Assembly (NCBI RefSeq): GCF_000169175.1
Contig: NZ_AAWS01000011.1
Coordinates: forward strand, 1 to 64,000
Direction of reading: 5' to 3'
DNA: 64,000 bases
Origin: Microscilla marina ATCC 23134
GTDB taxonomy: Bacteria > Bacteroidota > Bacteroidia > Cytophagales > Microscillaceae
Positions 14,868-30,202 of this stretch are shown here, one piece after another (position 1 is the first letter of the stretch; each line of letters opens with the position of its first letter). A program made the translations under genes and the position numbers. Below the pieces are notes generated by a model that worked only from the letters and a program-made list of their open reading frames with translations, was not told the DNA's origin and made no database searches.

Positions 14868-15419
14868 TTAGTTCAAAGAGTAGATAGGTTTCCACATTTC
14901 TACCATTTTCTTTACAGCATCTTCAGGAATGAACTTCATTTCGCTGAAAGGCTTACCAAATTGCTCAGTCATATGATTGTACATAGACTCAAAGTTGTCA
15001 TATACCTTGTTCATGTTCACTTTGTATAGTTCGATGAAGTCAGTATTAGCTACTTTGTCAGAAGAAGAACGCATATACTCATATACTTTCTGCGCAAATT
15101 TTTCTTGAGAATCAACCCACTCTTTCAAAAAGTCAGGAGCATCATCTAATTTCAATTGACCTTTAGCAGTGTCAACCATAGAATCTACAATTGATTTTTG
15201 CTTTTCAGACCAATCTTTGTACAATTCGTTCGCTTTTTGTGCAGCGTCAGTTCCTTCAACAGTTTTCTGAACTTTTTTAGCAGCTTCAACAAAGTTAGTC
15301 ATTAACTGAGTCTGAGCGTTTACAAAAGTTTCGAAAACCTCACGGGTACGAGTTTGTGCAGCTTCTTGAGTAGCTTCAACTTTTGAAGACTTTTGAGATT
15401 TTGTTTTTGTATTATTCAT
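14868..15419 (-). CDS. Phasin-like coiled-coil protein
   Basis: The 183-residue protein is almost wholly helical. It begins with a low-complexity N-terminus rich in Thr, Lys, Ser, Glu and Ala (1-25). A helical body follows with FVNAQTQLMTNFVEAAKKVQKTVEG and LYKDWSEKQKSIVDSM, as in phasin/PhaE-like proteins that coat polyhydroxyalkanoate granules. No PHA synthase is present in the window, so the granule link is inference. A stress-related coiled-coil protein is an alternative. A good TAnnTTTG box lies 30 bp upstream and codon use looks like that of a well-expressed gene. Confidence 0.5.
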   Translation of the reverse strand: MNNTKTKSQKSSKVEATQEAAQTRTREVFETFVNAQTQLMTNFVEAAKKVQKTVEGTDAAQKANELYKDWSEKQKSIVDSMVDTAKGQLKLDDAPDFLKEWVDSQEKFAQKVYEYMRSSSDKVANTDFIELYKVNMNKVYDNFESMYNHMTEQFGKPFSEMKFIPEDAVKKMVEMWKPIYSLN

Positions 15420-15448
15420 AGCAAAATACCTTTTTTAACTTCTTTGTA

Positions 15449-15456
15449 CAAATGTA
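15449..15456 (-). promoter_or_regulatory. Bacteroidota-type -7 box of the phasin-like gene
   Basis: On the minus strand the octamer TACATTTG matches TAnnTTTG and lies 30 bp upstream of the ATG, giving a short leader. The -33 element is not obvious. Confidence 0.5.
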
Positions 15457-15986
15457 TAAAGCTTGATGTGTTTTGTGAAATTTTTAAGTATATTTTTTTG
15501 TTTATAGTCCTTTATTTGCACATAACTAAGAAAATAGGGGGTGTTGATTGTATTTTTCTAATAAATGCAATGTCGGAGTAATATGAGGAAGGTGTTTTGT
15601 ACTTTGCAAATAAGCTTTTTGTTTTTAGATAGATTGATGGCTAAACTAAAAAACAAAATACTATAGCCTGGTAATATTATATGATAATTTGATAATATTA
15701 ACATTTAAATAATACAACTAAGTGAGTATAATATGAAAATTCGAATTTTTTTTATGAAAATTGCTATTTGTTGTTCATATATTACATCAGGGACTGATAA
15801 GCCTTCACACGTTTTTTGGGAAATCTAATTGAAATCAATAGTAGGGCAAGAGATCAGTAAAAGATGAAAGTTGAAGGTGGGAGTGTTTTGGGGCAGATAC
15901 ATTAAACCTTAAATACATACTACTCCTGTGAATAGTGATAAATGAGTGCTGGTCTAAAAAATTACTATTAAAATTGTAGCACAACC
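15457..15986. other. AT-rich intergenic region, no gene seen
   Basis: This stretch between the divergent phasin-like and rpsT genes is very AT-rich and has no coding frame I can support. Apart from the two flanking promoters I see nothing definite in it. Confidence 0.5.
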
Positions 15987-16017
15987 TTGAATAACTCAAT
16001 ATTTACTTATAAATTTG
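15987..16017 (+). promoter_or_regulatory. Promoter of rpsT
   Basis: TTG (15987-15989 region) and TAAATTTG (16010-16017) are separated by 20 bp, close to the Bacteroidota TTTG-N19-TAnnTTTG consensus. The rpsT ATG follows 57 bp later. Confidence 0.6.
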
Positions 16018-16074
16018 CGTCTCTTTTTTTGAAAAGCAGAACCATAGATATAAACGAAAAGAATTTAGTGAAGT

Positions 16075-16329
16075 ATGGCAAATCATAAATCAGCTCTTAA
16101 GAGAATTAGAGCAAACGAAAAAAAACGATTAAGAAATCGTTACCAAGTAAAGCAATTACGTGCTACTTTAAAGCAGTTGAACGCTACTAAAGAGAAATCT
16201 GAAGCTGAAACTCTTTTAAAAACAGCTAGTTCTCAATTAGACAAACTAGCCCGTAAAAACGTAATTCACAAAAATAAAGCTGCTAACCAAAAATCTAAAC
16301 TTACCAAACAAGTAAGTGCTTTGGGTTAA
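16075..16329 (+). CDS. rpsT: 30S ribosomal protein S20
   Basis: The 84-residue basic, helical protein begins MANHKSALKRIRANEKKRLR and contains NVIHKNKAANQKSKLTKQV, which are S20 signatures. The length is usual for the family. S20 binds 16S rRNA early in 30S assembly. It has its own promoter and is followed 116 bp later by radC. Confidence 0.97.
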   Translation: MANHKSALKRIRANEKKRLRNRYQVKQLRATLKQLNATKEKSEAETLLKTASSQLDKLARKNVIHKNKAANQKSKLTKQVSALG

Positions 16330-16445
16330 TATGAATTAGTAGCAAATTACTTCCCAAAAGATGAGGTGGAGCCGTATATTTTGTAATGTATGGCTTTTTT
16401 TATGCCTAATTCTGTAACTTGCCTCAAACAAAGGCTTTACATACT

Positions 16446-17219
16446 ATGCAAGATATTGTTTCGTCTCAGGCAAACAACAATGATGATCAAACGGTTGATA
16501 AAACAGCCAATAGCGAAGAGTCGTTTTTGGAGCCAGGTCGTTTACAGATCACCCGTTGGGCAGAAGAAGACCGTCCACGAGAAAAGTTATTGCTTAAAGG
16601 TAAACACTCACTTTCCGACGCTGAACTTATCGCAATATTGATTGGTTCAGGTACGGTGTCGGTAAGTGCAGTAGACCTTGCCAAACAAATACTCAACAGT
16701 GTAGGCAATAACCTGAACGACCTTGCCAAACTTAGTATCAAAGACCTGAAGAAGTTTAAGGGAATAGGAGAGGCCAAAGCTATTTCTATTATAAGTGCGT
16801 TGGAACTAGGACGCAGACGCAAAGAAAGTGAGCCGAGCCGCAAACCACGCATTACTTCATCAAAAAACGTGTACGACCTCATAGCTCCTCATTTGATGGA
16901 CTTGGGACACGAAGAGTTTTGGGCAGTGATGCTTAATAAATCCAATGTAGTAATAAAAAAAGAACAGATAAGCTCTGGTGGAGTGTCGGGTACCATTGCT
17001 GACCCTAAGGTTATTTTTAAAAAAGCAATAGAGGCATTGGCTTCGTCTATCATTGTGGTACACAACCATCCTTCGGGTAACCTGCAGCCTAGTCAGGCAG
17101 ACATAGGGCTTACCCGTAAGCTGGCCGAAGCAGGTAAAATGCTTGATATACCTGTATTAGATCATATGATTTTTACCGATTACAATTATTACAGTTTTGC
17201 CGATGAGGGCATGATGTAA
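16446..17219 (+). CDS. radC: RadC-family JAB/MPN-domain protein
   Basis: The ATG at 16446 gives 257 residues; upstream in frame there is only a TTG. The N-terminal part has a UPF0758-type helix-hairpin-helix region (DRPREKLLLKGKHSLSDAEL and LKKFKGIGEAKA). The C-terminal JAMM domain carries the metal-binding HNHPSGNLQPSQAD (HxH-x7-S-x2-D) and closes with LDIPVLDHMIF. RadC proteins were linked to DNA repair, but their biochemical role is unsettled; the fold is that of a metalloprotease. The DUF1684 gene follows after 20 bp. Confidence 0.93.
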   Translation: MQDIVSSQANNNDDQTVDKTANSEESFLEPGRLQITRWAEEDRPREKLLLKGKHSLSDAELIAILIGSGTVSVSAVDLAKQILNSVGNNLNDLAKLSIKDLKKFKGIGEAKAISIISALELGRRRKESEPSRKPRITSSKNVYDLIAPHLMDLGHEEFWAVMLNKSNVVIKKEQISSGGVSGTIADPKVIFKKAIEALASSIIVVHNHPSGNLQPSQADIGLTRKLAEAGKMLDIPVLDHMIFTDYNYYSFADEGMM

Positions 17220-17239
17220 ATTTGAAATAAGAAAAAACA

Positions 17240-17851
17240 ATGAGAAAAATATATTGGATTGTAAGTGTTGTTGTGGTGATTAGCCTGGTGTATTCTTTTT
17301 CAAGTACTGACAAAAAGAAAGTGTCTAAAGATTATGTAACCAGAATCATGGAGGCACGACAGGCAAAAGATGAGTATTTTGAAAGTGGTAAAGATTCACC
17401 AATCAAAGATAAAAAGGCTTTTCATGGCTTACATTATTATATACCTGATGCAGGGTATCGGGTACGTGCTACTTTAGAAGTAAGCCCTAAACCTGAAATG
17501 TTGGAAATGCCTACCAGCAATGGTAAAAACGAAAGTTATATAAAGTATGGCTATGTTGAGTTTAATTTATTAGGCAAAAAACATCGCTTGTTGGTGATGA
17601 AAAAAGAGCCCAAAGATAAAATACTATTTATAGCATTTACCGACCAAACCACCGGTGAAGAAACTTATGGGGCGGGCAGGTACTTGGATGTACCCTTGGT
17701 AAACGGCAACGAGGCCAACGTGATTTTGGACTTTAACCAGGCATATAATCCTTATTGTGCTTATAATGAATCTTATGTATGCCCCATGCCGCCTCAGGAA
17801 AATCACATGGAAGTAGCGGTGAGAGCAGGCGAAAAGGCCGAAAAGCATTAG
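17240..17851 (+). CDS. DUF1684 family protein
   Basis: The 203-residue protein has an N-terminal hydrophobic segment (6-20) that could be a membrane anchor or signal peptide. Its C-terminal half carries the DUF1684 hallmarks: TDQTTGEETYGAGRYL, LDFNQAYNPYCAYN and CPMPPQENHMEVAVRAGEK. The biochemical function of the family is unknown. It lies 20 bp after radC and ends before a strong terminator, so both are likely co-transcribed. Confidence 0.85.
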   Translation: MRKIYWIVSVVVVISLVYSFSSTDKKKVSKDYVTRIMEARQAKDEYFESGKDSPIKDKKAFHGLHYYIPDAGYRVRATLEVSPKPEMLEMPTSNGKNESYIKYGYVEFNLLGKKHRLLVMKKEPKDKILFIAFTDQTTGEETYGAGRYLDVPLVNGNEANVILDFNQAYNPYCAYNESYVCPMPPQENHMEVAVRAGEKAEKH

Positions 17852-17876
17852 AGAGCAGGCTTAAGAAAGCTATAGT

Positions 17877-17919
17877 AAAAAAGCCTGAAGTTGTTTTCTA
17901 ACAGCTTCAGGCTTTTTTT
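17877..17919 (+). terminator. Rho-independent terminator after the radC operon
   Basis: AAGCCTGAAGTTG pairs with CAGCTTCAGGCTT (one G-U), with flanking A- and T-runs. It lies between convergent genes and could serve both. Confidence 0.88.
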
Positions 17920-17943
17920 GGCTAATGATGTATGGTCTCTAAA

Positions 17944-18318
17944 CTAGATTTTTACTGCAAGTATTTTTTTCACTCTCACTGGCTTACCATTTTGTTTGCC
18001 TGGGTACCAGCGAGGGGCTTCTTGCAATACTTTGATGACAGCATTGTTACAGGCTGCACCTCCTAATCCTTTTAATACTTTGATATTACTTAACTTTCCG
18101 TCTTTTTCGACTACAAACTGTACAAACACATTTCCTGTAACTCCTTTTTTATGCCTTTGCACATTTTTGCTCACATAGTCATGAAAGGCCTCTAGCCCAG
18201 TGCGGGGTTTGGGAGCTTTTTGAGCCATTTTATATATTTTGTCTTGGCCTATACCTTGGTATGAGATGAAGGTAAACATTAGAAGGGGTAATACGAAAAG
18301 ATACTTTTTAAAGTTCAT
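17944..18318 (-). CDS. TonB C-terminal domain protein
   Basis: The ATG at 18318 opens into a signal peptide (MNFKKYLFVLPLLMFTFI, cut near SYQGIGQ); the frame extends 13 codons further without a better start. The mature part is a TonB C-terminal domain: GNVFVQFVVEKDGKLSNIKVLKGLG, then a helix and RWYPGKQNGKPVRVKKILAVKI. There is no proline-rich spacer or long N-terminal anchor, so it is a short secreted TonB-C protein rather than a classic energy transducer. It appears monocistronic. Confidence 0.82.
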   Translation of the reverse strand: MNFKKYLFVLPLLMFTFISYQGIGQDKIYKMAQKAPKPRTGLEAFHDYVSKNVQRHKKGVTGNVFVQFVVEKDGKLSNIKVLKGLGGAACNNAVIKVLQEAPRWYPGKQNGKPVRVKKILAVKI

Positions 18319-18475
18319 ATAGGGTTGTTTAGAGTAATTAATACAAAATAACATCATTTATTTGCACAAAAATAAACATTTTGGTAACTAAATACGTAGT
18401 CATCTGGGGATTTTTTTGATTTTCAACCTTTAAAATTACAATTTTATCTGATTTATAGCTTATTTCGAGAAGATA

Positions 18476-19435
18476 TCAATAGAATAGGTAAGGATTAAGG
18501 GTAAGGTGCAATACGCCCTGGCTTGGTTTAATGCGTTGGTTGGGTTGGTAGGTATAGGGCAACCCGTCAGCATCTATCATGGGTACATGAGGATTTTTAG
18601 AAGGGTTCCACTTACTGGGCACAAAATATAAGTCATGTATCAGTTTATTCTGAAGAAAATGTCTGATTATTTCTGCATCCAGCCCAACTTCAGCCCCTAT
18701 TATTTGTCTATAAGGTAAAGCCTGCAACACTTGCATGGTTAAAATACCATGCGAAAACCTGCCATACATAGCATTTGACATATCCCGGTAGCCATATTGT
18801 GCAGGGTAGTTGGCATTTTCAATGACTGGGGTTCGCCCTGAATTACCTGTCCAAAACCGGGTATTGAGTGCTATCATTGTATTTTGAACCTGGTAAGCGA
18901 TCCAAACCCCTCCCGTTCTAAACTTATCTACTGCCATATCACCCAAAGCATCATTCTCTGTCACGAGCCAAAACCGATTTGCTTGAAAAGCAATGGTTCC
19001 GGTGGTTTGCGAAGTTTTAATTTTGTCGTGATATACATTAAATACATACCCCAAAGCATTCAGACGTTTCATTTGGTTGCCAAAAGGCAGTAAAAAAGCG
19101 TACGCTTGTACTTCTGTTTGTTTGCCCCAGCCAAACATTAGCCCATAGTTGGTTTGTACCTCGATGCCAGGCAGCAAACGGGGAGGGCCATAAGTAGTTA
19201 CGTTGTATTGCCATCGGGTTTGGAAGTTGAACTGTACCTGTTCAAAAAAGTAATAGGCTTTGAACACCACACCCAGTGAGTTTTGGTGCGAGCCCAGCGA
19301 AAGCGAAATACCTATAGTGCCACCAACACCTTCGTTGAGGTTAGGTTGGGCTTGAGTAGATTTGGATAAGACGAGGTTGAAGAGTAAGCAAAATACAATG
19401 AAATAATGCCAGTAGAACAGTTTTTTTTGCTTCAT
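18476..19435 (-). CDS. Secreted protein of unknown function
   Basis: A 319-residue protein with a signal peptide (MKQKKLFYWHYFIVFCLLFN, cut near STQAQ). The mature part is rich in aromatic residues and alternating strands (VVFKAYYFFEQVQFNFQTRW), which suggests an outer-membrane beta-barrel or a periplasmic beta protein. I do not recognise the family. The last residue is aromatic (NPYLFY), as in many outer-membrane proteins that use the Bam machinery. No operon partner is evident. Confidence 0.65.
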   Translation of the reverse strand: MKQKKLFYWHYFIVFCLLFNLVLSKSTQAQPNLNEGVGGTIGISLSLGSHQNSLGVVFKAYYFFEQVQFNFQTRWQYNVTTYGPPRLLPGIEVQTNYGLMFGWGKQTEVQAYAFLLPFGNQMKRLNALGYVFNVYHDKIKTSQTTGTIAFQANRFWLVTENDALGDMAVDKFRTGGVWIAYQVQNTMIALNTRFWTGNSGRTPVIENANYPAQYGYRDMSNAMYGRFSHGILTMQVLQALPYRQIIGAEVGLDAEIIRHFLQNKLIHDLYFVPSKWNPSKNPHVPMIDADGLPYTYQPNQRIKPSQGVLHLTLNPYLFY

Positions 19436-19804
19436 TTTTCTAAATAATTGTCAAGTGATATTTATCTGTCCAATACCTGTTTGATTTGTGGAATCTTTGG
19501 TTTGGTCATAAAGTCCTTGTCTAACCAGGGTTTTCTTATAAAAGGCTCTTTAGGAGAATATACCCCAAAAAAAACGTATTCCCGCCTCGGGCAGTGTCTC
19601 CACGCCCGATCGAAACCTCGTACTTTGCAAGCTTCAGAGAGGCTTCTCAAGAATAGTTTTGAGAGGGTATAGCTTCAGTATAATATTAAGCGTGTATACA
19701 CTCAAATTCGGAAAAAGAGTATATCAGAAAGGAAATAACAAGGGGTTAGTAGGTACTTGCTGGCAGTTTATCACCCCATCAATGTCTAAAAACAACAAGT
19801 GTAT
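19436..19804. other. Intergenic region with possible coding remnant
   Basis: No confident gene. A minus-strand frame (19462-19650) gives a 62-residue product with a protein-like tail (FGVYSPKEPFIRKPWLDKDF), but it has no start context. The part around 19575-19620 is more GC-rich than its surroundings and contains small palindromes (CCCGCCTCGGG). It may be a remnant or part of a genomic repeat. Confidence 0.25.
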
Positions 19805-20488
19805 TTATAAACTACTCAAGTAAGACAAAACTACCCCGGCAAAGCGTGGGTAACGCCCGTTTTTGTCGCGTTTTTGGTACACTGTCATCGCGTGTTTGAT
19901 TTTTTCTTTGTCTTTTACCTTACGCAGTACCTTGGCAAGTTCAGTAATAATGGCTTTGCGTTGTTCTTTAAGTTTACTGGCGTTTAGGTTGAGTACTTCT
20001 ATAGTATTGAGCACAGTTTTTTCGCTGGGTGACAACTTGTTCATATTGAGCTGAATTTGTTTGATGGTGCGTAGCCCGTAAGCGTTTATTGGCACTACTT
20101 CGCCCAAAGTGTTATACTTAAAATAAGCATTGCAACGAGTGTCGTCCATAAATTTAGGAATGATGGCTTCATCTTTATGCGCAGCACAATGTTGGTATTG
20201 AGGAGGCATGCCTTCAGATGTACTGCATGATAAAAACAAGTTTTCGTAATTGAGTTCCTCTTTTTTAAAGTATTGTTGAGAGTGAAAATGCACCAGTCGT
20301 GAGGTTTGTTGGTTGATTTCTACCTGACAATAGCAACAAAGCCCACCCTGATAGTATAACAAAGAGTTGATGATGTCTTTGATGACCTCGTCTGGCAATA
20401 CATCATAAGAAGGTTTCCAGTTTTTGTGCTTTAAACCTTTGAAGTTTGTAAGTGACTCAGGTTCAGGTCCTTTTTGAATGTATCTCAT
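19805..20488 (-). CDS. HNH-type nuclease, TIGR02646/PtuB-like
   Basis: The ATG at 20488 (MRYIQKGPEPESL) is preferred over a start 18 codons upstream because MRYIxK is the typical start of the TIGR02646 family. From it the protein has 227 residues. It shows a zinc-type pattern CCYC (51-54), VHFHSQ (66-71), YENLFLSC (81-88) and HCAAHKDE (100-107), matching the HNH fold of that family. These proteins are partners of ATPases in Septu (PtuB) and some retron systems. It lies 118 bp downstream of the ATPase gene on the same strand. Cleavage of DNA or RNA after ATPase triggering is known for relatives; here it is inference. Confidence 0.75.
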   Translation of the reverse strand: MRYIQKGPEPESLTNFKGLKHKNWKPSYDVLPDEVIKDIINSLLYYQGGLCCYCQVEINQQTSRLVHFHSQQYFKKEELNYENLFLSCSTSEGMPPQYQHCAAHKDEAIIPKFMDDTRCNAYFKYNTLGEVVPINAYGLRTIKQIQLNMNKLSPSEKTVLNTIEVLNLNASKLKEQRKAIITELAKVLRKVKDKEKIKHAMTVYQKRDKNGRYPRFAGVVLSYLSSL

Positions 20489-20606
20489 ACAGTTTGATAC
20501 AGAAAAATTGTAAGTCCTACACCTGCTAATTGGCTCAACCAATCACCTGGGAGGTGGACGTAAAATAGTTAAATATAATTAGGCTGCAAGTTCAAATATA
20601 CGAATA

Positions 20607-21845
20607 TTATTCGTCTTCATAAAATGCCAGCAATACGTCGGCTCTTGCCAACTCCGGGTCATCGTTTCCAATGGCTTCTTCGAGTTGTTTACGCAGGTTC
20701 ATCGCATTTTCGCTCAAGCCTTCGCCCACTTCAATCAGCTCAAAATATAAGTCTAGCTTGTCTTGTACATCTTCTATGCGTTCGGGGGTAGCCATTACAT
20801 TACGCAACACATCATTGGCAGTGCGCCCATAAGTATTTACACTATAGTAAGCTTTGCCATCTACCATTGTTACAATACGGTCTTGTACCGTACTCAAAAT
20901 CAAGGGAGAGTGGGTAGTGACAATGAATTGAATTTTAGGGAACGAGGTTTTCAGGTTATTCACAATTTCTTTTTGCCAGGAGGGGTGCAGGTGTAAGTCC
21001 AGTTCGTCAATCAATACCAACCCTTCGGTCAATTGAGCCGCATCTTCGCCCAGGTGAGGGTTTAGCATTGCACAACGAAAAGCAATATCAGCCACTGTAG
21101 CAAGTGTGTTACGTACCCCATCACTCAAATATTTAAATGGCAATTTTCGCCCATCGTTGTACTCCATAATCAACTCGCGGCGGTTAAAATCGAAGTATAC
21201 ATTTTCGCAGCCATCCACACAATTACTTACTGTTTTGCGTACTACCTGAAGCCCTACCGATTCTTTGCGTTGTTGCAAAACCACCATTTCCTCTTTTTCA
21301 AACCACTTGGTAAAAAACTTGTTGTTTGAGGTCGCTTTCAAGCCATTGTAGTAGCCATCTTTGAGGCGCGAACCACTGATTTTGGTCGTATCAGAGCGTT
21401 CTTTCCAAAGGCGTTCGGTAGAGTAGTAAGCAACCATTGGCAAGTTTACGTTTTCGCCTGCCCGTACCCGGCTCTGAATCTCTTTGGCAAGTTCTTTTAT
21501 TTTAAGGGCTTTTACGTAAGTTGTCTTGTTTTTGGGGCCAGTCAACTCTCTGAGCCAACTGATTTCCTGCCCATTAATCACTCCCCAGGTTTCTACTTCT
21601 ACCGGAAACTGTTCGTTAATGTCAAACTCGGTGCTTAATACTCTGATATCTTCGGGACGAATGTGGCGGTTTTCGGCGTAATCGATGCCCAAAAAAAACG
21701 ACCCTGCAGCTACTGTCAATGCTTCCAGTACAGCGGTTTTTCCGGTACCATTGATACCAATGACAATGTTGAAGTTAGGGTGAAACTCGATTTCGGTTTC
21801 CTCATAACATCTAAAGTTTTTGAGGCGAATTTTATCAATTCTCAT
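20607..21845 (-). CDS. AAA/ABC-type ATPase, PtuA-like (RecF/OLD-like)
   Basis: The 412-residue protein begins MRIDKIRLKNFRCYEETEIE, the typical SMC/RecF/OLD-type opening. Walker A is GINGTGKT (30-37), an ABC-like signature region is YLSDGVRNTLATVADIA, and Walker B plus D-loop is LVLIDELDLHLHPSW near 275-288. It ends with a switch His in FIVTTHSPLIL. No Toprim nuclease domain follows, unlike OLD proteins. Such COG3950-type ATPases occur with TIGR02646 HNH proteins as Septu-like anti-phage pairs. The gene comes first, then the HNH gene on the same strand. The ATG at 21845 fits the family start. Confidence 0.82.
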   Translation of the reverse strand: MRIDKIRLKNFRCYEETEIEFHPNFNIVIGINGTGKTAVLEALTVAAGSFFLGIDYAENRHIRPEDIRVLSTEFDINEQFPVEVETWGVINGQEISWLRELTGPKNKTTYVKALKIKELAKEIQSRVRAGENVNLPMVAYYSTERLWKERSDTTKISGSRLKDGYYNGLKATSNNKFFTKWFEKEEMVVLQQRKESVGLQVVRKTVSNCVDGCENVYFDFNRRELIMEYNDGRKLPFKYLSDGVRNTLATVADIAFRCAMLNPHLGEDAAQLTEGLVLIDELDLHLHPSWQKEIVNNLKTSFPKIQFIVTTHSPLILSTVQDRIVTMVDGKAYYSVNTYGRTANDVLRNVMATPERIEDVQDKLDLYFELIEVGEGLSENAMNLRKQLEEAIGNDDPELARADVLLAFYEDE

Positions 21846-21993
21846 ATATTCAAGGGGTACACTTGCTAATTTCTAACTAAATTTTGTTCCCTAATGGATA
21901 GATATTAGGTGGTATAATACTGACTATCAGACATTTTAATGTAAAATAGGTTTAAAAAATATTTTACCGAATGAATGGTAAGAAAGTACAAAC

Positions 21994-22094
21994 GCATCTT
22001 CACAAATATATGTGAAATGCCTAAAGCTTTGCAAATAAAGCTACCCAAAAGTTATTGATAATTAAATAATTACCGAAGCTTTTGGGTGTTTTTT
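21994..22094 (+). other. Two hairpins, the second terminator-like, without a gene
   Basis: A bulged stem (GCAT-c-TTCAC with GTGAA-ATGC, 21994-22020) is followed by ACCCAAAAG/CTTTTGGGT (22043-22051 and 22079-22087) and a run of six T. It lies 149 bp upstream of the Septu-like ATPase on the opposite strand, where no protein gene is visible. A small RNA is possible. The remaining stretch to 22601 is AT-rich with nothing I can name. Confidence 0.4.
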
Positions 22095-22601
22095 AGAGCA
22101 GTTTTTTTAGTAAACCCCTCTCTGTAACAAAAAAATAAGCCAAGTCAGGGTAGTTAGAAACTATAAATAGGTAATTGTGTGATTTTTTCATAATGTTCTA
22201 TTATTTTTATCAACCAAGACAGATTATTTTGTAAGTTTATTTATATAAATATAAACGTTTTGAATGATATTTTGATCTTGTTTGGTTAGTTTAGATTTAT
22301 TGTTTTTTTTGTTTTTATTCTATGTAATGCTCATATTTTTAACACCTGGATAATATACGGTTAAGTTGTTTTTAGTCAGTAATTTATGGACTAGTTGAAC
22401 GACTCTGGAATAGTAAGTTAAACAACTTGATATTTTAGTATTATTTCCATAAAAAAGTGTTTCTAAAATAGTGTTTAATTATAAATAACTCATCCTGGGT
22501 GCATTTTAAACTTTCCTACAACGTATAATGTTATAGGGGCAAAGATCAAGCGCAGAGTCTGATATATACCCTGGTTTTTTGAATATAATTATTTAATTAA
22601 T

Positions 22602-23360
22602 ATGCGTCACCACATTCAATTATTTACGCTGATTTGTTTCAGTTTGATTACAACAAGTTGTATTAAACAAGACACGTCAGCACCTAAAACAACACTTAAC
22701 TTGAGGTTTACCAATGAGTTTGCCGGGCAGCCTTTACAATTAAACAAAACCTATACTACACTATTAAACGATGAGGTGGAGTTTACTACTTTCAATTATT
22801 ATATAAGTAATATTCAGCTTAAAAAAGCCGATGGTTCTGTTTGGGTACAACCAGAGAGTTATCATTTATTGAAAGTAACAGATGCCAACGCTGGAGTAGT
22901 GCCCATTAGTCTTACAGATGTTCCTCAGGGGCAGTATGCTGAACTGATTTTTTCGGTAGGAGTAGACGCTGTACGCAATAGTAGTGGGGCGCAAGAGGGG
23001 GCTTTAGACCCTATCAATGGAATGTTTTGGACTTGGAAAACTGGTTATATGTTTTTGAGAAGCGAGGGATTTTATATACAAAACGAGCAAAAACAAGGGG
23101 CTTTTGTCTACCACACCGGAGACAACACTGCTTATCAAACGGTTACTTTGGCGCTTAACAATGTAACCCTAAACACTACCAATAGTGAGTGGAAACTAAA
23201 GGCTGATGCTCAACAGCTTTTTGGTGGATTTACCGGGGCAGCCATTGACCTTGCAATGCCCGCAGGAGGCAATTCGGTCACTATTAAAGGAGGAGCAAAA
23301 GGTGCTTTGATTGCTAACAATTATAAGCAAATGTTTAGCCTTGGAGATTTTCAAAAATAA
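22602..23360 (+). CDS. MbnP-like lipoprotein
   Basis: The 252-residue protein has a lipoprotein signal with Cys20 (LITTSC). The mature part starts with a beta-strand LNLRFTNEFAGQPL. It continues FTTFNYYISNIQL, LIFSVGVDAVRN, GALDPINGMFWTWKTGYMF and FVYHTGD, which are marks of the MbnP family. MbnP relatives are periplasmic or outer-membrane proteins linked to copper binding in methanobactin producers. In Bacteroidota they are common near MbnH/TonB genes, none of which is here. Metal binding is inference. Confidence 0.75.
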   Translation: MRHHIQLFTLICFSLITTSCIKQDTSAPKTTLNLRFTNEFAGQPLQLNKTYTTLLNDEVEFTTFNYYISNIQLKKADGSVWVQPESYHLLKVTDANAGVVPISLTDVPQGQYAELIFSVGVDAVRNSSGAQEGALDPINGMFWTWKTGYMFLRSEGFYIQNEQKQGAFVYHTGDNTAYQTVTLALNNVTLNTTNSEWKLKADAQQLFGGFTGAAIDLAMPAGGNSVTIKGGAKGALIANNYKQMFSLGDFQK

Positions 23361-23407
23361 TAATAGGGGAGGGTAGTCTACACTTGTATAGGTTACCCTT
23401 TTCAACC

Positions 23408-25909
23408 TTATTCAAGGTAAAAGACCCGCTTTACCCGTTGACTAATGTTGGTCAGTATTTCATAGGGAATAGTGTCAATGCTTTGGGCTAAATCAAGGAT
23501 AGAAAGCTCTTCATTAAAAATAATTACCTCATCACCTTCAGTGGCTTCTACTCCTGTAACATCTATCATACACATATCCATACACACATTACCAATGACT
23601 GGTACTTTTGCCCCGTTGACCATTACTTTGCCTACCCCATTGCTAAATGCCCTACTAAAACCATCGGCATAACCAATGGCAACAGTGGCAGTTTTGGTAG
23701 TATGGCTTGCCACCCCTTTGCGGCTATAGCCTACCGTTTCGCCGGGTTGTAAATATTTAATCTGTGAAATAGTTGTAGTCAACCGGCTGATAGACTGAAG
23801 TTGACTTTGCGCAATTTGGTTGGCTTCTATTCCGTATAGTCCAATACCCAGCCGTACCATGTCAAAACTTGCTTCCGGAAAACGCACAATACCGGGTGAG
23901 TTAAGAATATGTTTGATGACCTCATAACCCAAGGCTGTTTCTATTTGCTTGGTAGCTGCCTCAAAGAGCGTAATTTGCTGTTGAGAGTAAGCGTTGTGAG
24001 TAGCCTCATCAGAGCCTGCCAAATGGCTAAATACCGATGCAATGCTGAGGTAATCCAAGGGGGCTTTTTGTTGTGTGTCGGGTTGTTGTAATACCTGAAG
24101 CAAACGGGGTACTTCTTCGACAACAAAGCCCAATCGGTGCATTCCAGTGTCTATTTTTAGGTGTACTTTGGCAGTGGTTTGTTGCTCTTTCAAGAAGTGA
24201 ATAAATTCGTCTAAAACCTTAAAACTATACATCTCAGGCTCCAGATCATACTGTAGCAGCTTGTCAAAAGTATCTTCGCTGGGGTTCATGACCATAATGG
24301 GCAAATCGATGCCACTTTCACGTAAAAATACCCCTTCATCGGCGTAAGCCACCCCCAGGTAATCTACCCGGTGAAACTGTAGCAAATGAGCAATTTCGGC
24401 GCTACCGCTTCCATAGGCAAACGCCTTTACCATGACCATCATTTTGGTGTGAGAGGGCAACTGTTCGCGGTAAAAGTTTAAATTGTGTACCAAGGCTCCT
24501 AAGTTAATTTCAAGCACAGTGCCGTGTACTTTTTGCTGAAGCTGATGTACGAGGTGTTCAAACCTAAAGCGACGGGCTCCCTTCACCAATATGACAGCAT
24601 TGGCAAGCCTTGCAAGTTCTACCTGGCTCTCTAACAAGTCTTTAGTTTGGTCAAAAAATACCACATCCAATACATTGAAACTCGCCTGGTGTTTCTTTAT
24701 CTCTTCGCCTACCGCTATTACTCGGTCTATAGCTTTGCTTTGCAGCAATTGGGCAATGGCTTGGTATAGTTTTTCGGGGGGCAAACCCGACTGCAACATA
24801 TCTGACAACACCACTATTTTTTGCAGGTTTACATCTTGTGTGCTCATAAAGTCGAGCGCGATTTTTAGCCCTGCCAAGTCGTTGTTATAACTGTCATCTA
24901 TCAGGTAAGTATTGCGCATGCCGCGTTTGAGTTCCAGGCGCATAGACACAGGACGCAACCGGGCAATACGACGTTGTATTTTGTCGAACGACAAACCCAA
25001 CAAACACATAGTGGCAACACAGTGCAAGATGTTCTCTACAGAGGCTTCGTCTATAAAAGGAGCTTGAATGAAATGGTTTTCACCTTGGTATTGTACTTTT
25101 AGTTGGGTTTGTTGCTGAGTCAGGTGTGTTTGCTTGTCCAGCAACCGTAGTTGGGCTTGTTCGTTTTTGCCCCACGTAAAGGGTTGTCCACTAAAAGAGG
25201 TCTTTGTGACAATATCGTGGTATGTTTGTAAATGTTCTGCACAGCAAACTACAGCTTTGCAATGTTCAAAAAGCTTCCACTTTTCAGCAAATTTTTGGGT
25301 GCGATTGTCAAAACCCTCATCATGAGCAGTACCCAGGTTAGTAAATATGCCTATGCTGGGTTGAATGACCTTTTGTAGGGCTGTCATTTCGTTTTTGGCA
25401 GAAATGCCCGCCTCAAAAATACCCATTGTATGGCGTTTGTTCATTTGCCACACCGACAAAGGAACACCTGTTTGTGAGTTGTAGCTTTTGGGGCTTTTTA
25501 CTACCTTAAAATCTTCTGCCAGTAGTTTGGCAAGCCATTCTTTCACCATTGTTTTACCATTGCTCCCGGTTACCCCAATGACTGGTATTTGATATTGGTT
25601 ACGGTGAGCTGCGGCTACTTGCTGTAGGGCATTTACTGCACTTGTTACCTTTAGTATGTTAGCGTTGGGTAATTTAACATGGGCAGGCAAATTTTCTTCT
25701 ATTACAAAGTTACGCACGCCCCTGGCGTATAGCTCTGCCACAAACTCATGCCCATTGTGGTGTTCGCCATTGATGGCAAAATACAAAGCTTGCGAGGGGT
25801 TGTAAAGCTTGCGACTGTCGAGCAATAAATGATATACAGCTTGATCTGACTGGGTTTGCTGAACAAGTGTTGCCTGAATGATGGGGACTATTTGCTTAAT
25901 AACTAACAT
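23408..25909 (-). CDS. murF-alr: Bifunctional MurF ligase / alanine racemase
   Basis: The 833-residue fusion has an N-terminal MurF part (1-~455) that adds D-Ala-D-Ala to UDP-MurNAc-tripeptide. Its P-loop is GVTGSNGKT (112-120), with NSQTGVPLSVW (144-154) and IDDSYNND (337-344) further on. The C-terminal part (~463-833) is a PLP alanine racemase making D-Ala, with the PLP Lys495 in MVKAFAYGSGS and later HLAGSD and GNVCMDMCMIDVTG. This fusion is a known Bacteroidota arrangement and couples D-Ala supply to peptidoglycan precursor synthesis in the cytoplasm. Length is usual. The gene converges on the MbnP-like gene with a 47-bp gap. Confidence 0.95.
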   Translation of the reverse strand: MLVIKQIVPIIQATLVQQTQSDQAVYHLLLDSRKLYNPSQALYFAINGEHHNGHEFVAELYARGVRNFVIEENLPAHVKLPNANILKVTSAVNALQQVAAAHRNQYQIPVIGVTGSNGKTMVKEWLAKLLAEDFKVVKSPKSYNSQTGVPLSVWQMNKRHTMGIFEAGISAKNEMTALQKVIQPSIGIFTNLGTAHDEGFDNRTQKFAEKWKLFEHCKAVVCCAEHLQTYHDIVTKTSFSGQPFTWGKNEQAQLRLLDKQTHLTQQQTQLKVQYQGENHFIQAPFIDEASVENILHCVATMCLLGLSFDKIQRRIARLRPVSMRLELKRGMRNTYLIDDSYNNDLAGLKIALDFMSTQDVNLQKIVVLSDMLQSGLPPEKLYQAIAQLLQSKAIDRVIAVGEEIKKHQASFNVLDVVFFDQTKDLLESQVELARLANAVILVKGARRFRFEHLVHQLQQKVHGTVLEINLGALVHNLNFYREQLPSHTKMMVMVKAFAYGSGSAEIAHLLQFHRVDYLGVAYADEGVFLRESGIDLPIMVMNPSEDTFDKLLQYDLEPEMYSFKVLDEFIHFLKEQQTTAKVHLKIDTGMHRLGFVVEEVPRLLQVLQQPDTQQKAPLDYLSIASVFSHLAGSDEATHNAYSQQQITLFEAATKQIETALGYEVIKHILNSPGIVRFPEASFDMVRLGIGLYGIEANQIAQSQLQSISRLTTTISQIKYLQPGETVGYSRKGVASHTTKTATVAIGYADGFSRAFSNGVGKVMVNGAKVPVIGNVCMDMCMIDVTGVEATEGDEVIIFNEELSILDLAQSIDTIPYEILTNISQRVKRVFYLE

Positions 25910-26041
25910 GCGTTAAGGGTTTATTTGCTGACTTTTGTGTGGGCAAAGTTAGTAAGGTTTTGCTTTTATGAAAGCGCTGTGTTGAGTACAGGGTGGGGGA
26001 GTAAGTGCAACAGAATAAACGGAACAGTAAGTGTTGTTGCT

Positions 26042-26079
26042 AAAAAAACCTTCCAAAACCGTCAGTTGTTTTGGAAGGT
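26042..26079 (-). terminator. Rho-independent terminator of the kelch gene
   Basis: A perfect 12-bp stem (ACCTTCCAAAAC/GTTTTGGAAGGT) is followed on the minus strand by T7, 47 bp after the kelch-protein stop. Confidence 0.88.
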
Positions 26080-26125
26080 GCATGGTATCAAGCCCAGGAA
26101 GGGGAACTTGATTGATAAGGAGAAC

Positions 26126-27406
26126 TTAATTTATGATCACTTGCTTTACTGTGTTGCCCCTATCAGTAGTGATTTTGACAAAATACAAACCCTTAGGCTG
26201 GAGGCTTAGGTCTACTAAAAAAGTTTGGGTTTTTTCGTGGTTATTTTCCAACGTCTCTACCACTTCACCTTTTACGTTAAATATTGCCACACTTAGGTAC
26301 TTTGTCGGAGCAGGAAGTACCACATTTATTTTGTCGTGGCTAGGGTTAGGGTATAGCTGTACATTTGGAGCTGTTGCCAACGCTTTTTTACTTTGTATAT
26401 AGGCAGAGGTTCTCCCACCTTTGTTCTTGCAGGGAATGTATGCCCAAAAATTATTTCTAAAATAATTGATGGCAATACCAAGTCCTACATAGGCAGTGGT
26501 ACCAATTACAAAACTTCGCGGGCTTATTCTGGCAGTACCAGCATAATCGGCCACTTGTGTCCAGGTATCTTTAGAGGGCGAATATTCCCACATTTTTCGC
26601 GATCCAGTATTATTTTCAGGATTTACCCCTCCACAAACATATCCTTTGTCATTTACGGCAAAAGCAGCGGCTTTTTTTGCTGGATTTTCCCCGAATTTAT
26701 TCTTTTGCTCCCAACTATTATCCTTAGGGTCATACGCCCATACATCTTTTAAAGCTGTACCACTAGTATCAGCTTCTCCCAAAGCTATAAAGCCTTTACC
26801 ATTAAGGGCAAACGACACCGCTTCTGAGCGTGCTTTGCCAGGTAGATCCGCTACTTTTGTCCAAGTGTCTTCGTCCTGATCATACCTCCATAAGTCATTG
26901 AAAGTGTTGGTTTTATCAAACGTGTCTCCTGTACCTATATAAGCTGTGTTGCCTATAGTAAAGCTTCGGGCGTTGTTTCTGCCTTGCCCCGGAAAGTTAT
27001 TCTTTCTTGTCCAGGCGTCTGTGGCTGGGTCATACTCCCAAATATCTTGTAAATAAGTATAAAACCGACTGCCCAAACCAATGTATCCTTTGCCATTTAC
27101 AGAGAAAGCCACACCTTGAGAGCGGGCATACCCCGGAAATCCGGTTTTTTGTGCCCAGGTATTTGTCTCAGGGGTGTATTCAAGTAAATAAGGAAGCCCC
27201 ACCAATATTTGGCATACATACGCCTTATTGCCAATGCTAAAGGTAAGCGACTGGTTGTCTCGTGAGTTGCGCGACATATTGGCAATGCCTGTCCATGAGT
27301 CGCATTGCTGGGTTTGCGCGTAACTGCTTGTACTAGCAAGGTTTATTGCAAGAGCTACTAGTATATAAAGGATGAAGTATTTTGTGAAAGCTGATTTTTT
27401 CATCAC
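26126..27406 (-). CDS. Kelch-repeat protein with T9SS sorting tail
   Basis: The 426-residue protein has a signal peptide (hydrophobic 11-28, cut near SSYAQ). About six kelch-type repeats follow (residues ~40-320), each with a core such as AYIGTGD, GFIALGE or AYVGLG and a DTWTKVADLPGKARS-like segment; they would form a beta-propeller. The C-terminal ~75 residues are a type A type-IX secretion sorting domain: LYPNPSHDKINV, then VKGEVVE, and GLYFVKITTD near the end. The protein is thus predicted to be exported by T9SS to the surface. The ligand is unknown. It is monocistronic with its own terminator. Confidence 0.88.
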   Translation of the reverse strand: MMKKSAFTKYFILYILVALAINLASTSSYAQTQQCDSWTGIANMSRNSRDNQSLTFSIGNKAYVCQILVGLPYLLEYTPETNTWAQKTGFPGYARSQGVAFSVNGKGYIGLGSRFYTYLQDIWEYDPATDAWTRKNNFPGQGRNNARSFTIGNTAYIGTGDTFDKTNTFNDLWRYDQDEDTWTKVADLPGKARSEAVSFALNGKGFIALGEADTSGTALKDVWAYDPKDNSWEQKNKFGENPAKKAAAFAVNDKGYVCGGVNPENNTGSRKMWEYSPSKDTWTQVADYAGTARISPRSFVIGTTAYVGLGIAINYFRNNFWAYIPCKNKGGRTSAYIQSKKALATAPNVQLYPNPSHDKINVVLPAPTKYLSVAIFNVKGEVVETLENNHEKTQTFLVDLSLQPKGLYFVKITTDRGNTVKQVIIN

Positions 27407-27546
27407 GAATAATTTAGATTATTGAATTTAAGTAAATCACACTTTAGCCCTCTATTTCTAAAATGTGTAAGTGTTGTTTGTCTGGTGTTTTTGCCAAAGC
27501 AGTCTGTACCAGAAGATAAAATGAATTATTAACTAATTTGATATAA

Positions 27547-27583
27547 TAAAAAGCCTCCCAAAATTTATACTTGAGAGGCTTTG
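27547..27583 (-). terminator. Intrinsic terminator on the minus strand, gene-less
   Basis: GAGGCTTT pairs with AAAGCCTC, with the U-run on the minus strand. No minus-strand gene ends nearby; the kelch gene starts further down. It may terminate a small RNA. Confidence 0.55.
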
Positions 27584-27667
27584 AGCTGCAAATATATGGT
27601 GGTTTGCTTAATTTATTACTATTCTTGTGGCAATACTATTTTTTTAGTGCGCCTTTTAACTGAAGCA

Positions 27668-27705
27668 CAAAAAAAATCGGTCAAAACTAAAAGTCTTGAC
27701 CGATT
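27668..27705 (-). terminator. Second minus-strand terminator, gene-less
   Basis: AATCGGTCAA and TTGACCGATT form a perfect 10-bp stem followed on the minus strand by T7 or more. Like the terminator ~120 bp further on, it ends no recognised gene. Confidence 0.65.
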
Positions 27706-28431
27706 CAACCTTGTAAACCAACCTTTTAATCTACACAACCAATGTGTAATCTTAAAACTATCTTATCTATGAGTGAAAAATTATCGTTTTAATACTTATT
27801 TTTTAGACAGCTTATCTCTGCGTAACTTGTTCATATAAAAATCCCTCAATATTTTTTATGATATGCAGAAAATTATGCTCATTGTTTAAGTGGAAAAAAT
27901 ACCAATATTGATTGGTGTTTTTTTCTATAATATTCAGTTTTTCAATTTGATCCTTTGTTGTTCTTATTTCCTTTATTGTTATTACAAAGGTAGGCTAAAA
28001 GCTAGGTAATCACAACCTTACGTGTAGGTGTTTATGTAAGGTTCACCCCCTGAAAAACGATATTTTTGAACATGTGTATAGAATGTGTGTTCTTGAAATA
28101 TTACAATAAAGGATTGCTGGGTATTTTTTTTGATCATATTTTAAAGGTTATATACTGCTTGTATGCACTTTAAATAAGGTTTTATCCATTGGTTGGTAAT
28201 AAAAGTGGTCAATTTTTATCCTCAATTATTGAGAATATCTCACATAAAAAGAAAAAGTAAATTTTGAAAGCATACTACCAAAAAATGGTGCACGAATGGG
28301 TCACTCATAACATCTGATAGTTTTGAAGAGCGATCGGGCATGCTACAATCCCGTGGTTTAGGGCTGTACTTGCAGCTTGGGTTTGTTTTGAGTAATTTCA
28401 AGGTGTTGTTAAACACCCTTAAAACAAAAAG
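27706..28431. other. Structured AT-rich intergenic region
   Basis: No convincing gene was found. Hairpins are AACCTTAC/GTAAGGTT (28014-28043) and ACCAAT/ATTGGT followed by T7 (27901-27923). A 12-codon minus-strand frame (27796-27834, MNKLRRDKLSKK) lies just before the two orphan terminators and might be a leader peptide or chance. Confidence 0.35.
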
Positions 28432-28878
28432 ATGGAAATAGAAAGAAAATTTTTAGTGAATGAACTTCCGCAGAACCTTGACAGTTACCCCAAAACCCGC
28501 ATTAAACAATGGTACATTACCATCAAACCAGCTGTCAGGCTTCGTGAGCGTGATGGAGTGTATACCTTTACGGTAAAATCAAAAGGACACTTGGTGCGGC
28601 AAGAGTTTGAAATGGAGCTTACCCAAGAAGAGTTTGCCAACTTATTTACTAAGGTGTCTACCCATGCTATAGACAAAATCCGCTATGAAATAAGCCTGGA
28701 CAATGGGTTAACTGCCGAGTTAGATGTGTTTTTGGGCAAACACAAGGAGTTAAATTTAGTAGAAGTAGAGTTTGAAACAGAAGAAGCTGCTCATGCGTTT
28801 ACTCCACCTGCGTGGTTTGGCGAAGATGTGACTCAAGAGGCTAAGTATAAAAATAATAACCTGGCATTGCCCCTATAA
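28432..28878 (+). CDS. CYTH-domain protein
   Basis: The 148-residue protein begins MEIERKFLV, the ExExK motif (Glu2, Glu4, Lys6) that defines the CYTH superfamily of triphosphate tunnel metalloenzymes. Further basic and acidic residues of the tunnel appear in AVRLRERDGVYTFTVKSKG, FEMEL, RYEI and LVEVEFETEE. Related bacterial proteins hydrolyse inorganic triphosphate or nucleoside triphosphates; some are class IV adenylyl cyclases. The length fits the short bacterial triphosphatase type. Which reaction it performs is not visible. It faces the dehydrogenase gene. Confidence 0.9.
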   Translation: MEIERKFLVNELPQNLDSYPKTRIKQWYITIKPAVRLRERDGVYTFTVKSKGHLVRQEFEMELTQEEFANLFTKVSTHAIDKIRYEISLDNGLTAELDVFLGKHKELNLVEVEFETEEAAHAFTPPAWFGEDVTQEAKYKNNNLALPL

Positions 28879-28923
28879 CAGGCATGGGCAACTTGTTTTT
28901 AACGAGTAAGAGTTCTTTAATCA

Positions 28924-28983
28924 AAATCAGGGGCAGCCTGTTGTCCGAAAGCAAAGTTCAGAGAAGTAGGCTACCCCTGATTT
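28924..28983. terminator. Long hairpin between convergent genes
   Basis: A 16-bp stem with one mismatch (AAATCAGGGGCAGCCT with AGGCTACCCCTGATTT) encloses a 28-nt loop. It sits between the CYTH and dehydrogenase stops and may stop both transcripts, although U-tracts are absent. Confidence 0.45.
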
Positions 28984-29041
28984 ACAGGGCAGACAAGAAA
29001 GCAAACAAAAATATGGATAGTTGCCTTACGTTTTATTTAAC

Positions 29042-30202
29042 TTAGTAAGCCATTTCCACAATTTCGGCAGCTACTTCAGGCGTAATGTCGCGGTGTTCGC
29101 CTAGTTTTACCATGCCGTGGGCTTTCAAATTCTCGGCTACTGTATCACCAAAACCTTGATAATTGTCAGTGTAGTCGCTTAGTTTGGTTTTAATGCCCAG
29201 AGAGTGGAAAAACTCCTCGGTTTTTTGAATGGCTACTTTAGCTTTTTCTTCCACAGTTCCGGTTTGTATATTAAAAACCCGTTCGGCATACTGGGCAAGC
29301 TTTTCTTTCTTTTGATCAAACTTTTTGGTGTAAGCACTGGGTAAAATAATCGCCAGCGTACGGGCGTGGTCAATGCCATAGTGAGCAGTAAGTTCGTGAG
29401 CGATCATGTGCACGCTCCAGTCAGTAGGCACTCCTTTCTGAATGTAACTATTGAGCGCCATTGTACAAGACCACATAAAGTTAGATGCTGCCACGTAGTC
29501 GTTAGGATCGGTCAAAACCTTGGGTGCTACTTCAATCAGGGTTTGCAAAATACCCTCAGAAATACGGTCTTGCAAAAACGCGTTTGCCGGGTAAGTCATA
29601 TATTGCTCCATTACGTGGGTATAGGCATCTGCCACTCCATTGGCAAGTTGGCGTTGAGGCAAAGATCGAATAACGGTAGGGTCACAAATAGAGAATTGTG
29701 GAAACAAGCCAGGTCCACCCATTGTCAGCTTTTCTTGGGTTTCTTTGCGGCTCACTACTGCGCCACTGTTCATTTCGCTGCCTGTGGCAGGCAAGGTAAG
29801 TACTGTACCAAAGGGCAAACCCTCGTAAGTACGAATACGGTTGGCGAGTATGTCCCAGGGAGTATCGCCTTCATATAATACTGCTGATGATAAAAACTTG
29901 GTGCCATCTATGACCGATCCACCGCCTACAGCAAGCAAGAAGCCTATATTTTCGTTTTTAATAATTTCCAATGCTTTGAGCAAAGTTTGGTATTGTGGGT
30001 TAGCCTCAATGCCGCTAAACTCTACTACCTTGTGACTGCTCAGTGCCTCGGTTACTTGGTCATAAACACCATTTTTTTTAATGCTTCCGCCACCATACAG
30101 CATTAGTACCTTCTTGCCTTTGGGTACAAGGTCGGTTAGTTTCTTTATCTCGCCTTCGCCAAAAACCAGCTTTGTGGGTACATATAATTCAAAATTGTTC
30201 AT
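29042..30202 (-). CDS. Iron/zinc-type alcohol dehydrogenase, YqhD-like
   Basis: The 386-residue protein belongs to the group III iron-dependent alcohol dehydrogenases. It has the NAD(P)-binding GGGS (37-40) and AVGGGSVIDGTKF (91-103), and metal ligands Asp192, His196, His265 and His279. These match the E. coli YqhD pattern with a constant offset of two. YqhD-type enzymes reduce aldehydes with NADPH in the cytoplasm. Substrate is likely short or medium aldehydes. The gene is alone with 239 bp to the next upstream gene on the same strand. Confidence 0.9.
   Translation of the reverse strand: MNNFELYVPTKLVFGEGEIKKLTDLVPKGKKVLMLYGGGSIKKNGVYDQVTEALSSHKVVEFSGIEANPQYQTLLKALEIIKNENIGFLLAVGGGSVIDGTKFLSSAVLYEGDTPWDILANRIRTYEGLPFGTVLTLPATGSEMNSGAVVSRKETQEKLTMGGPGLFPQFSICDPTVIRSLPQRQLANGVADAYTHVMEQYMTYPANAFLQDRISEGILQTLIEVAPKVLTDPNDYVAASNFMWSCTMALNSYIQKGVPTDWSVHMIAHELTAHYGIDHARTLAIILPSAYTKKFDQKKEKLAQYAERVFNIQTGTVEEKAKVAIQKTEEFFHSLGIKTKLSDYTDNYQGFGDTVAENLKAHGMVKLGEHRDITPEVAAEIVEMAY

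Follow-up and report, generated by a model that had tools for sequence, protein, structure and literature searches.

The window, a 64,000-nt stretch of Microscilla marina ATCC 23134, carries on its minus strand an ATPase gene followed by a gene for an HNH-type protein (ptuA, 21845..20607; ptuB, 20488..19805), at the place and in the order in which a first-pass annotation had described such a pair. The features that matter for what follows are listed here in the order in which the pair is read, with one gene from beyond it.

20607..21845, minus strand: ptuA, SMC/ABC-type ATPase, 412 aa (matched by the PADLOC PtuA profile PDLC00278 and by PtuA of structure 8ee4)
21735..21758, minus strand: Walker A of PtuA, GINGTGKT, residues 30-37 (G..G.GKT in 9/9 family PtuAs)
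21003..21017, minus strand: Walker B of PtuA, VLIDE, residues 277-281 ([VI]L[IV]DE in 9/9 family PtuAs)
20489..20606, no strand: gap between ptuA and ptuB, 118 bp (117/118 bases the same as in the sister species, G047)
19805..20488, minus strand: ptuB, HNH-type (TIGR02646) protein, 227 aa from ATG (matched by the PADLOC PtuB profile PDLC00332)
20291..20293, minus strand: codon 66 of ptuB (Val), the HNH acid column (D or E in 58/58 controls)
20288..20290, minus strand: codon 67 of ptuB (His), the HNH histidine, kept in the window (Gln in G116; Pro in G170 and G088)
20240..20242, minus strand: codon 83 of ptuB (Asn), the HNH asparagine (kept in 8/8 family PtuBs)
17944..18357, minus strand: TonB_C-domain gene (homologue also downstream of ptuB in G047, G031, and G153)

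By sequence and structure comparison, the pair is Septu (PtuA-PtuB) by descent. The search with PtuA and PtuB profiles that the first-pass annotation had proposed is positive for both genes, at 3.1e-144 and 1.5e-43 respectively. The best match of PtuA to a solved structure is E. coli Septu 8ee4 (2.1e-66, residues 1-403), with retron PtuA structures ranking behind it (1.4e-38 or weaker); its 12 Pfam matches include no Toprim family, in agreement with the earlier description of a Toprim-less ATPase, and the LSDG and H motifs are, like Walker A and Walker B, intact in all nine family PtuAs. The smaller protein, described earlier as TIGR02646-type, reaches 73.0 bits with that profile, whose cut-off is 52.15. 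For PtuB, an AlphaFold2 model built from eight sequences (mean pLDDT 75.8) matches eleven chains at E < 0.001, all of them from Septu or retron PtuAB complexes (Foldseek against 8eea_G, 1.2e-6). Motifs shared by PtuBs at large are likewise retained. A structure model of PtuA was weak (mean pLDDT 67.7) and was set aside.

The 118-bp gap does contain the ATTGG/CCAAT hairpin pointed out earlier, at 20529-20543. It does not exceed chance level: two hairpins of 5 bp are found, where 0.81 would be expected from 1000 simple shuffles, of which 21.9% reach two. G031, G116, and G178 lack the word pair in their gaps, and 58 bases separate the two words in G129; the hairpin was rejected as a signal. The stretch upstream of ptuA is clearly more diverged from the sister species than the gap is, and the high identity of the gap would be explained by a leader or by a longer ptuB, for which an in-frame TTG at 20542 (adding 18 aa) is available. 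An RNA family at the locus was rejected, as Rfam has no match up to E 1 between 19400 and 22700.

The window and the sister species are collinear over the 21 kb around the pair; among the neighbours one 84-aa protein is identical, and the other matched ones are 88-99% so. Ten neighbouring genes (14868-30202) were tested, and none has a Pfam reverse transcriptase match at E <= 0.001, as the first-pass annotation had it, or a PADLOC defence-gene match at E <= 1e-5. Directly downstream of ptuB, at 18476-19435 on the minus strand, is a gene matching Pfam Ntox23, "Bacterial toxin 23" (5.3e-68); it is present in the sister species (94%), and is not found between ptuB and the TonB_C gene in G031 and G153. 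On the other side, the minus-strand gene at 23408-25909 encodes a Mur ligase fused to an alanine racemase in a single 833-aa protein, with a match in 14 of the 15 family genomes searched. Between ptuA and a divergent MbnP gene, at about 22040-22100, lies an inverted repeat with a long loop, CCCAAAAG ... CTTTTGGG, followed by a T run on the plus strand; it is identical in the sister species, while the rest of the same intergenic stretch partly differs, and it is missing from the output of a terminator scan.

PtuA orthologues are found in 8 of the 14 other genomes of the family Microscillaceae that were searched, or 9/15 with the window's own, in 6 of 11 genera. They are 100% identical to the window's PtuA in the sister species and 62-77% in the seven other carriers. 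Matches of at least 64% occur only in this family among 291 genomes evenly drawn across the order (E <= 1e-40, at most 6 candidates per genome scored); the next best long match there is 41%, and among 395 genomes evenly drawn across the class (E <= 1e-50, at most 4 candidates per genome scored) it is 44%. A GTDB contig scan gave five close matches, from Microscilla, Microscillaceae (two), Cytophagales, and Bacteroidetes, followed by matches of about 30% identity in Phocaeicola and Prevotella; short partial matches outside the lineage reach 45-52% over some 50 residues. Plasmid and phage matches are 28-37% identical, with best values of 36.3% (plasmid) and 37.4% (phage), and such a source was rejected; a scan of viral contigs with PtuB found no relative. 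The nine family PtuAs form one group in the PtuA tree (support 99/99). PtuB orthologues occur in the same nine genomes and are 39-64% identical between genera. This is a small sample, nine genomes in six genera, and the five with titled records comprise four MAGs and one "uncultured".

Between genera, PtuA is 63-83% identical over residues 1-343, the comparison stopping there because the frame is broken in G153 (60-78% over full length), against 60-74% for RadC and 50-61% for the fused MurF-Alr protein. On these alignments the conservation of PtuA is close to that of RadC and exceeds that of MurF-Alr, a core-like rate; PtuB diverges faster than PtuA. Distances for PtuA and RadC have a Pearson correlation of 0.78 and a Spearman correlation of 0.56 (36 pairs), and those for PtuB and MurF 0.89 and 0.67 (21 pairs), where the pairs are non-independent and the Pearson values depend on a few near-identical ones; PtuA and PtuB distances are weakly correlated by rank (Spearman 0.30, p 0.12). 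In a RadC plus MurF-Alr tree the carriers fail to form a single clade and need 4 changes (equalled by 128 of 500 shuffles), and several losses or within-family transfers are therefore needed. As to features of a mobile island, the flanks are collinear with the sister species, the lineage is confined to one family in the samples searched, and the carriers are not monophyletic. Mainly vertical inheritance of the pair is probable.

The two genes are adjacent in seven of the nine genomes, with gaps of 54, 114, 118, 118, 185, and 388 bp in six of them (G153, with its broken PtuA frame, is left out). Orthologues occurring apart, which the first-pass annotation had named as a finding against its proposal, are seen in the other two. 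In G088, ptuA and ptuB are 2.2 kb apart on opposite strands with three genes between them, which we take to be a dprA-like, a yraN-like, and one other gene; in G170 they are in the interior of two different contigs. In both of these genomes ptuA is preceded by a gene that is presumably hisA-like.

In HNH nucleases, the acidic residue before the histidine is a metal ligand. The window's PtuB does not have the intact centre (D/E-H ... N): His67 and Asn83 are kept, and the acid is replaced by Val66. The acid is missing from the lineage as a whole, with D or E before the HNH histidine in 0/8 family PtuBs (all Val or Ile) as against 42/42 controls. Two further family copies have Val (a partial one, G178) and Thr (G075), so that the acid is missing in 10/10 readable. 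The 42 controls consist of a set of 11 (8 weaker PtuB matches and the PtuBs next to 3 PtuA loci from the GTDB contig scan), 28 loci of 56 matches (L134, a fragment, was left out), and 3 copies from the window's own genome; G047:C6, the closest sister of the family group, is one of the 42, and outside the set are 11 further weak PtuB matches with loci and 8 without, and the locus-less ones of the 56. Nineteen PtuB-type copies from the same family genomes, at loci outside the lineage, were also read; three were already among the 42, and the 16 new ones all keep D/E, for 58/58 controls overall. Controls longer than 350 aa were cut to a segment with a pattern that itself requires D/E-H, a slight bias in this count.

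The histidine is lost as well in three of the eight family PtuBs (G116, G170, and G088), and in G116 no histidine is found between the acid column and Asn83. One alignment makes His67 look invariant by shifting a downstream histidine of G088 (FIHAQ) into its column; ungapped comparison of G088 with G129 and G116 puts Pro there. In the window's PtuB, His67 and Asn83 are 16 residues apart, the same spacing as H75 and N91 of E. coli Septu. According to an excerpt of PMC13096335, these two HNH residues and the Walker residues are required for immunity; the excerpt describes no test of the acid. In Cas9, D839, which lies beside the histidine, is one of the residues that were mutated for their implication in cutting the target strand, and D839A prime editors performed about as well as H840A ones (both from an excerpt of PMC10063541); by analogy, D839 would be the equivalent of the PtuB acid. 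In a PtuB tree made by a quick method, from an alignment that kept the active-site columns, the family group (SH-aLRT 95) joins the IEH-bearing sister G047:C6 at 99, and the acid loss therefore looks derived. Loss of zinc ligands (G031 and G153 are without most of the Cys set) was rejected as proof of inactivity, because PtuB of E. coli Septu (CCYS) and controls L125 and L133 are also without the cysteines.

Such losses, differing among members as they do, might be those of a defence relic decaying under relaxed constraint. Two further observations could be read in this way. A tenth PtuB orthologue, in G075, occupies two reading frames and has no PtuA orthologue found beside it or elsewhere in that genome; and in G153 the reading frame of ptuA is interrupted close to its end. 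The title of the G153 record gives a coverage of 2.7, however, and the other PtuA and PtuB copies have no frame breaks as far as their contigs reach. The G075 copy (L078, 9419-10089, in overlapping frames, from a genome rated 99% complete) may represent a frameshift, a sequencing error, or an orphan PtuB. Against relaxation there are the substitution rates (calculated by NG86 in Biopython, leaving out the between-genus comparisons with saturated dS, which are the majority). Window and sister-species PtuA are identical at 412/412 residues (dN 0.000, dN/dS 0) despite a dS of 0.140, and their PtuBs have a dN/dS of 0.040. For G170 and G088, whose PtuBs have neither acid nor histidine and whose genes are unlinked, dN/dS is 0.043 for PtuB (dS 0.96) and 0.084 for PtuA (dS 0.60). 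These codon comparisons show both genes to be under strong purifying selection, also where histidine and linkage are lost; with dN/dS of 0-0.08 in both close pairs, decay is largely refuted, and we consider it very improbable. PtuB has lost a catalytic residue yet is tightly held, and should therefore have a function other than that catalysis.

Some residues appear to have become fixed in the lineage. Glu57 of PtuB is present in 8/8 lineage proteins and 1/42 controls, and Pro111, also invariant in the lineage, in 1/42; Asn126 (0/39 controls), Thr127 (3/39), Leu128 (0/41), and Glu130 (5/42) are likewise invariant in lineage PtuBs. Arg140 and Thr141 were dropped as lineage-specific, because only 3 controls have letters there. 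The others would mark a new constraint on the lineage PtuB. Glu57 could, judging by its conservation, be a relocated metal ligand, and with His67 and Asn83 kept the window's PtuB may still cut, weakly or in a re-wired manner; it nevertheless probably does not cleave.

For the same reason, that the window keeps His67 and Asn83 and that Glu57 might replace the acid, a re-wired active nuclease is the main rival: an ordinary working Septu, in which PtuB cuts tRNA or DNA through His67 and Asn83, with some other ligand, for example Glu57, in place of the acid, and protects against phage. Strong profile matches, the invariance of Glu57, the adjacency of the genes in most carriers, and the faster divergence of PtuB, as might be expected of an effector, are all consistent with it. 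It is nonetheless unlikely, given an acid that every control keeps and the lineage does not, a histidine lost in three members (two of whose PtuBs are demonstrably under selection), core-like conservation, and genes that have come apart in two genomes. Of the initial proposal of a Septu-like anti-phage pair, descent is borne out by the PtuA and PtuB profiles and by 8ee4; an anti-phage function is not supported, because the lineage as a whole has lost the HNH acid and some members the histidine too, conservation is core-like, and no defence gene was found among the ten neighbours tested.

Inactive subunits can act as dominant negatives within an oligomer, and the dead PtuB (with PtuA) could conceivably mix with canonical PtuAB and lower its toxicity. 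Additional TIGR02646 matches that amount to more than a fragment are present in seven of the nine carriers, and every one that was read has D/E-H. Such a brake on immunity is disfavored, because the partner to be restrained seems to be lacking in two carriers: no second TIGR02646 match is found in G153 (E 1e-4), and the only one in G031 lies in an 82-aa open frame. We regard it as improbable.

The reading that we prefer, with a probability of roughly 0.6 on the sequence evidence, is that a Septu was domesticated in the Microscillaceae, where the pair took on a core-like character and the canonical cutting centre was lost. A more specific version, to which we would tentatively give slightly less than even odds, is that an immune system has become a housekeeping one: an inherited, non-cutting ATPase complex found family-wide, its PtuB a pseudo-nuclease with a motif of its own (NTLGE) that is newly engaged in the surveillance or maintenance of nucleic acids. 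PtuA, its ATPase motifs kept, would cycle ATP and still assemble with PtuB, the two lineage proteins probably forming a complex. PtuB would now be a non-cleaving, probably nucleic-acid-binding or regulatory subunit, and the complex would sense or hold a nucleic-acid structure, or gate PtuA, with no destruction of DNA or tRNA.

A defence finder relying on profiles for PtuA and PtuB would score the pair as Septu, and since the profiles match strongly despite a nuclease centre changed throughout the lineage, Septu counts need an active-site check. If the preferred reading is true, the lineage is a natural separation of function, showing what a non-cutting PtuA-PtuB complex does. No description of an inactive or domesticated PtuB was recognized among the matches listed from the open-access literature; one may exist elsewhere.

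Among known systems, the window's PtuA and PtuB are related to the PtuA/PtuB effectors of type I-A retrons (Ec78/Eco7, Ec83), and TIGR02646 is by its NCBI description a retron-system HNH endonuclease. The window differs in having no reverse transcriptase among the ten neighbours and no Rfam match at the locus; its PtuA is 138 aa shorter than the retron PtuA chain (550 aa), and the pair misses the NCBIfam retron cut-offs (256 vs. 500 bits for PtuA, 106 vs. 150 for PtuB). Canonical TIGR02646 copies in the same genomes (for example G000:C6 and G047:C6) belong to the same protein family as the lineage PtuB; they differ in that D/E-H is present in all 19 read and in three from the window's own genome, and the PtuA beside G000:C6 falls outside the family PtuA group. 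G116 has an unusual load of PtuB-type genes, with ten TIGR02646 matches (L076, L081, and other contigs) in a 5.4-Mb genome. With E. coli Septu (8ee4/8ee7/8eea), the window shares the order ptuA-ptuB, a PtuA of similar length (412 vs. 465 aa) matched nearly from end to end, and a PtuB model that superimposes with a TM of 0.67. The E. coli PtuB reads IEH where the window's has Val66 in place of the acid, and the pair in this lineage differs further in its gaps of 54-388 bp, in being unlinked in two genomes, and in its core-like standing within one family.
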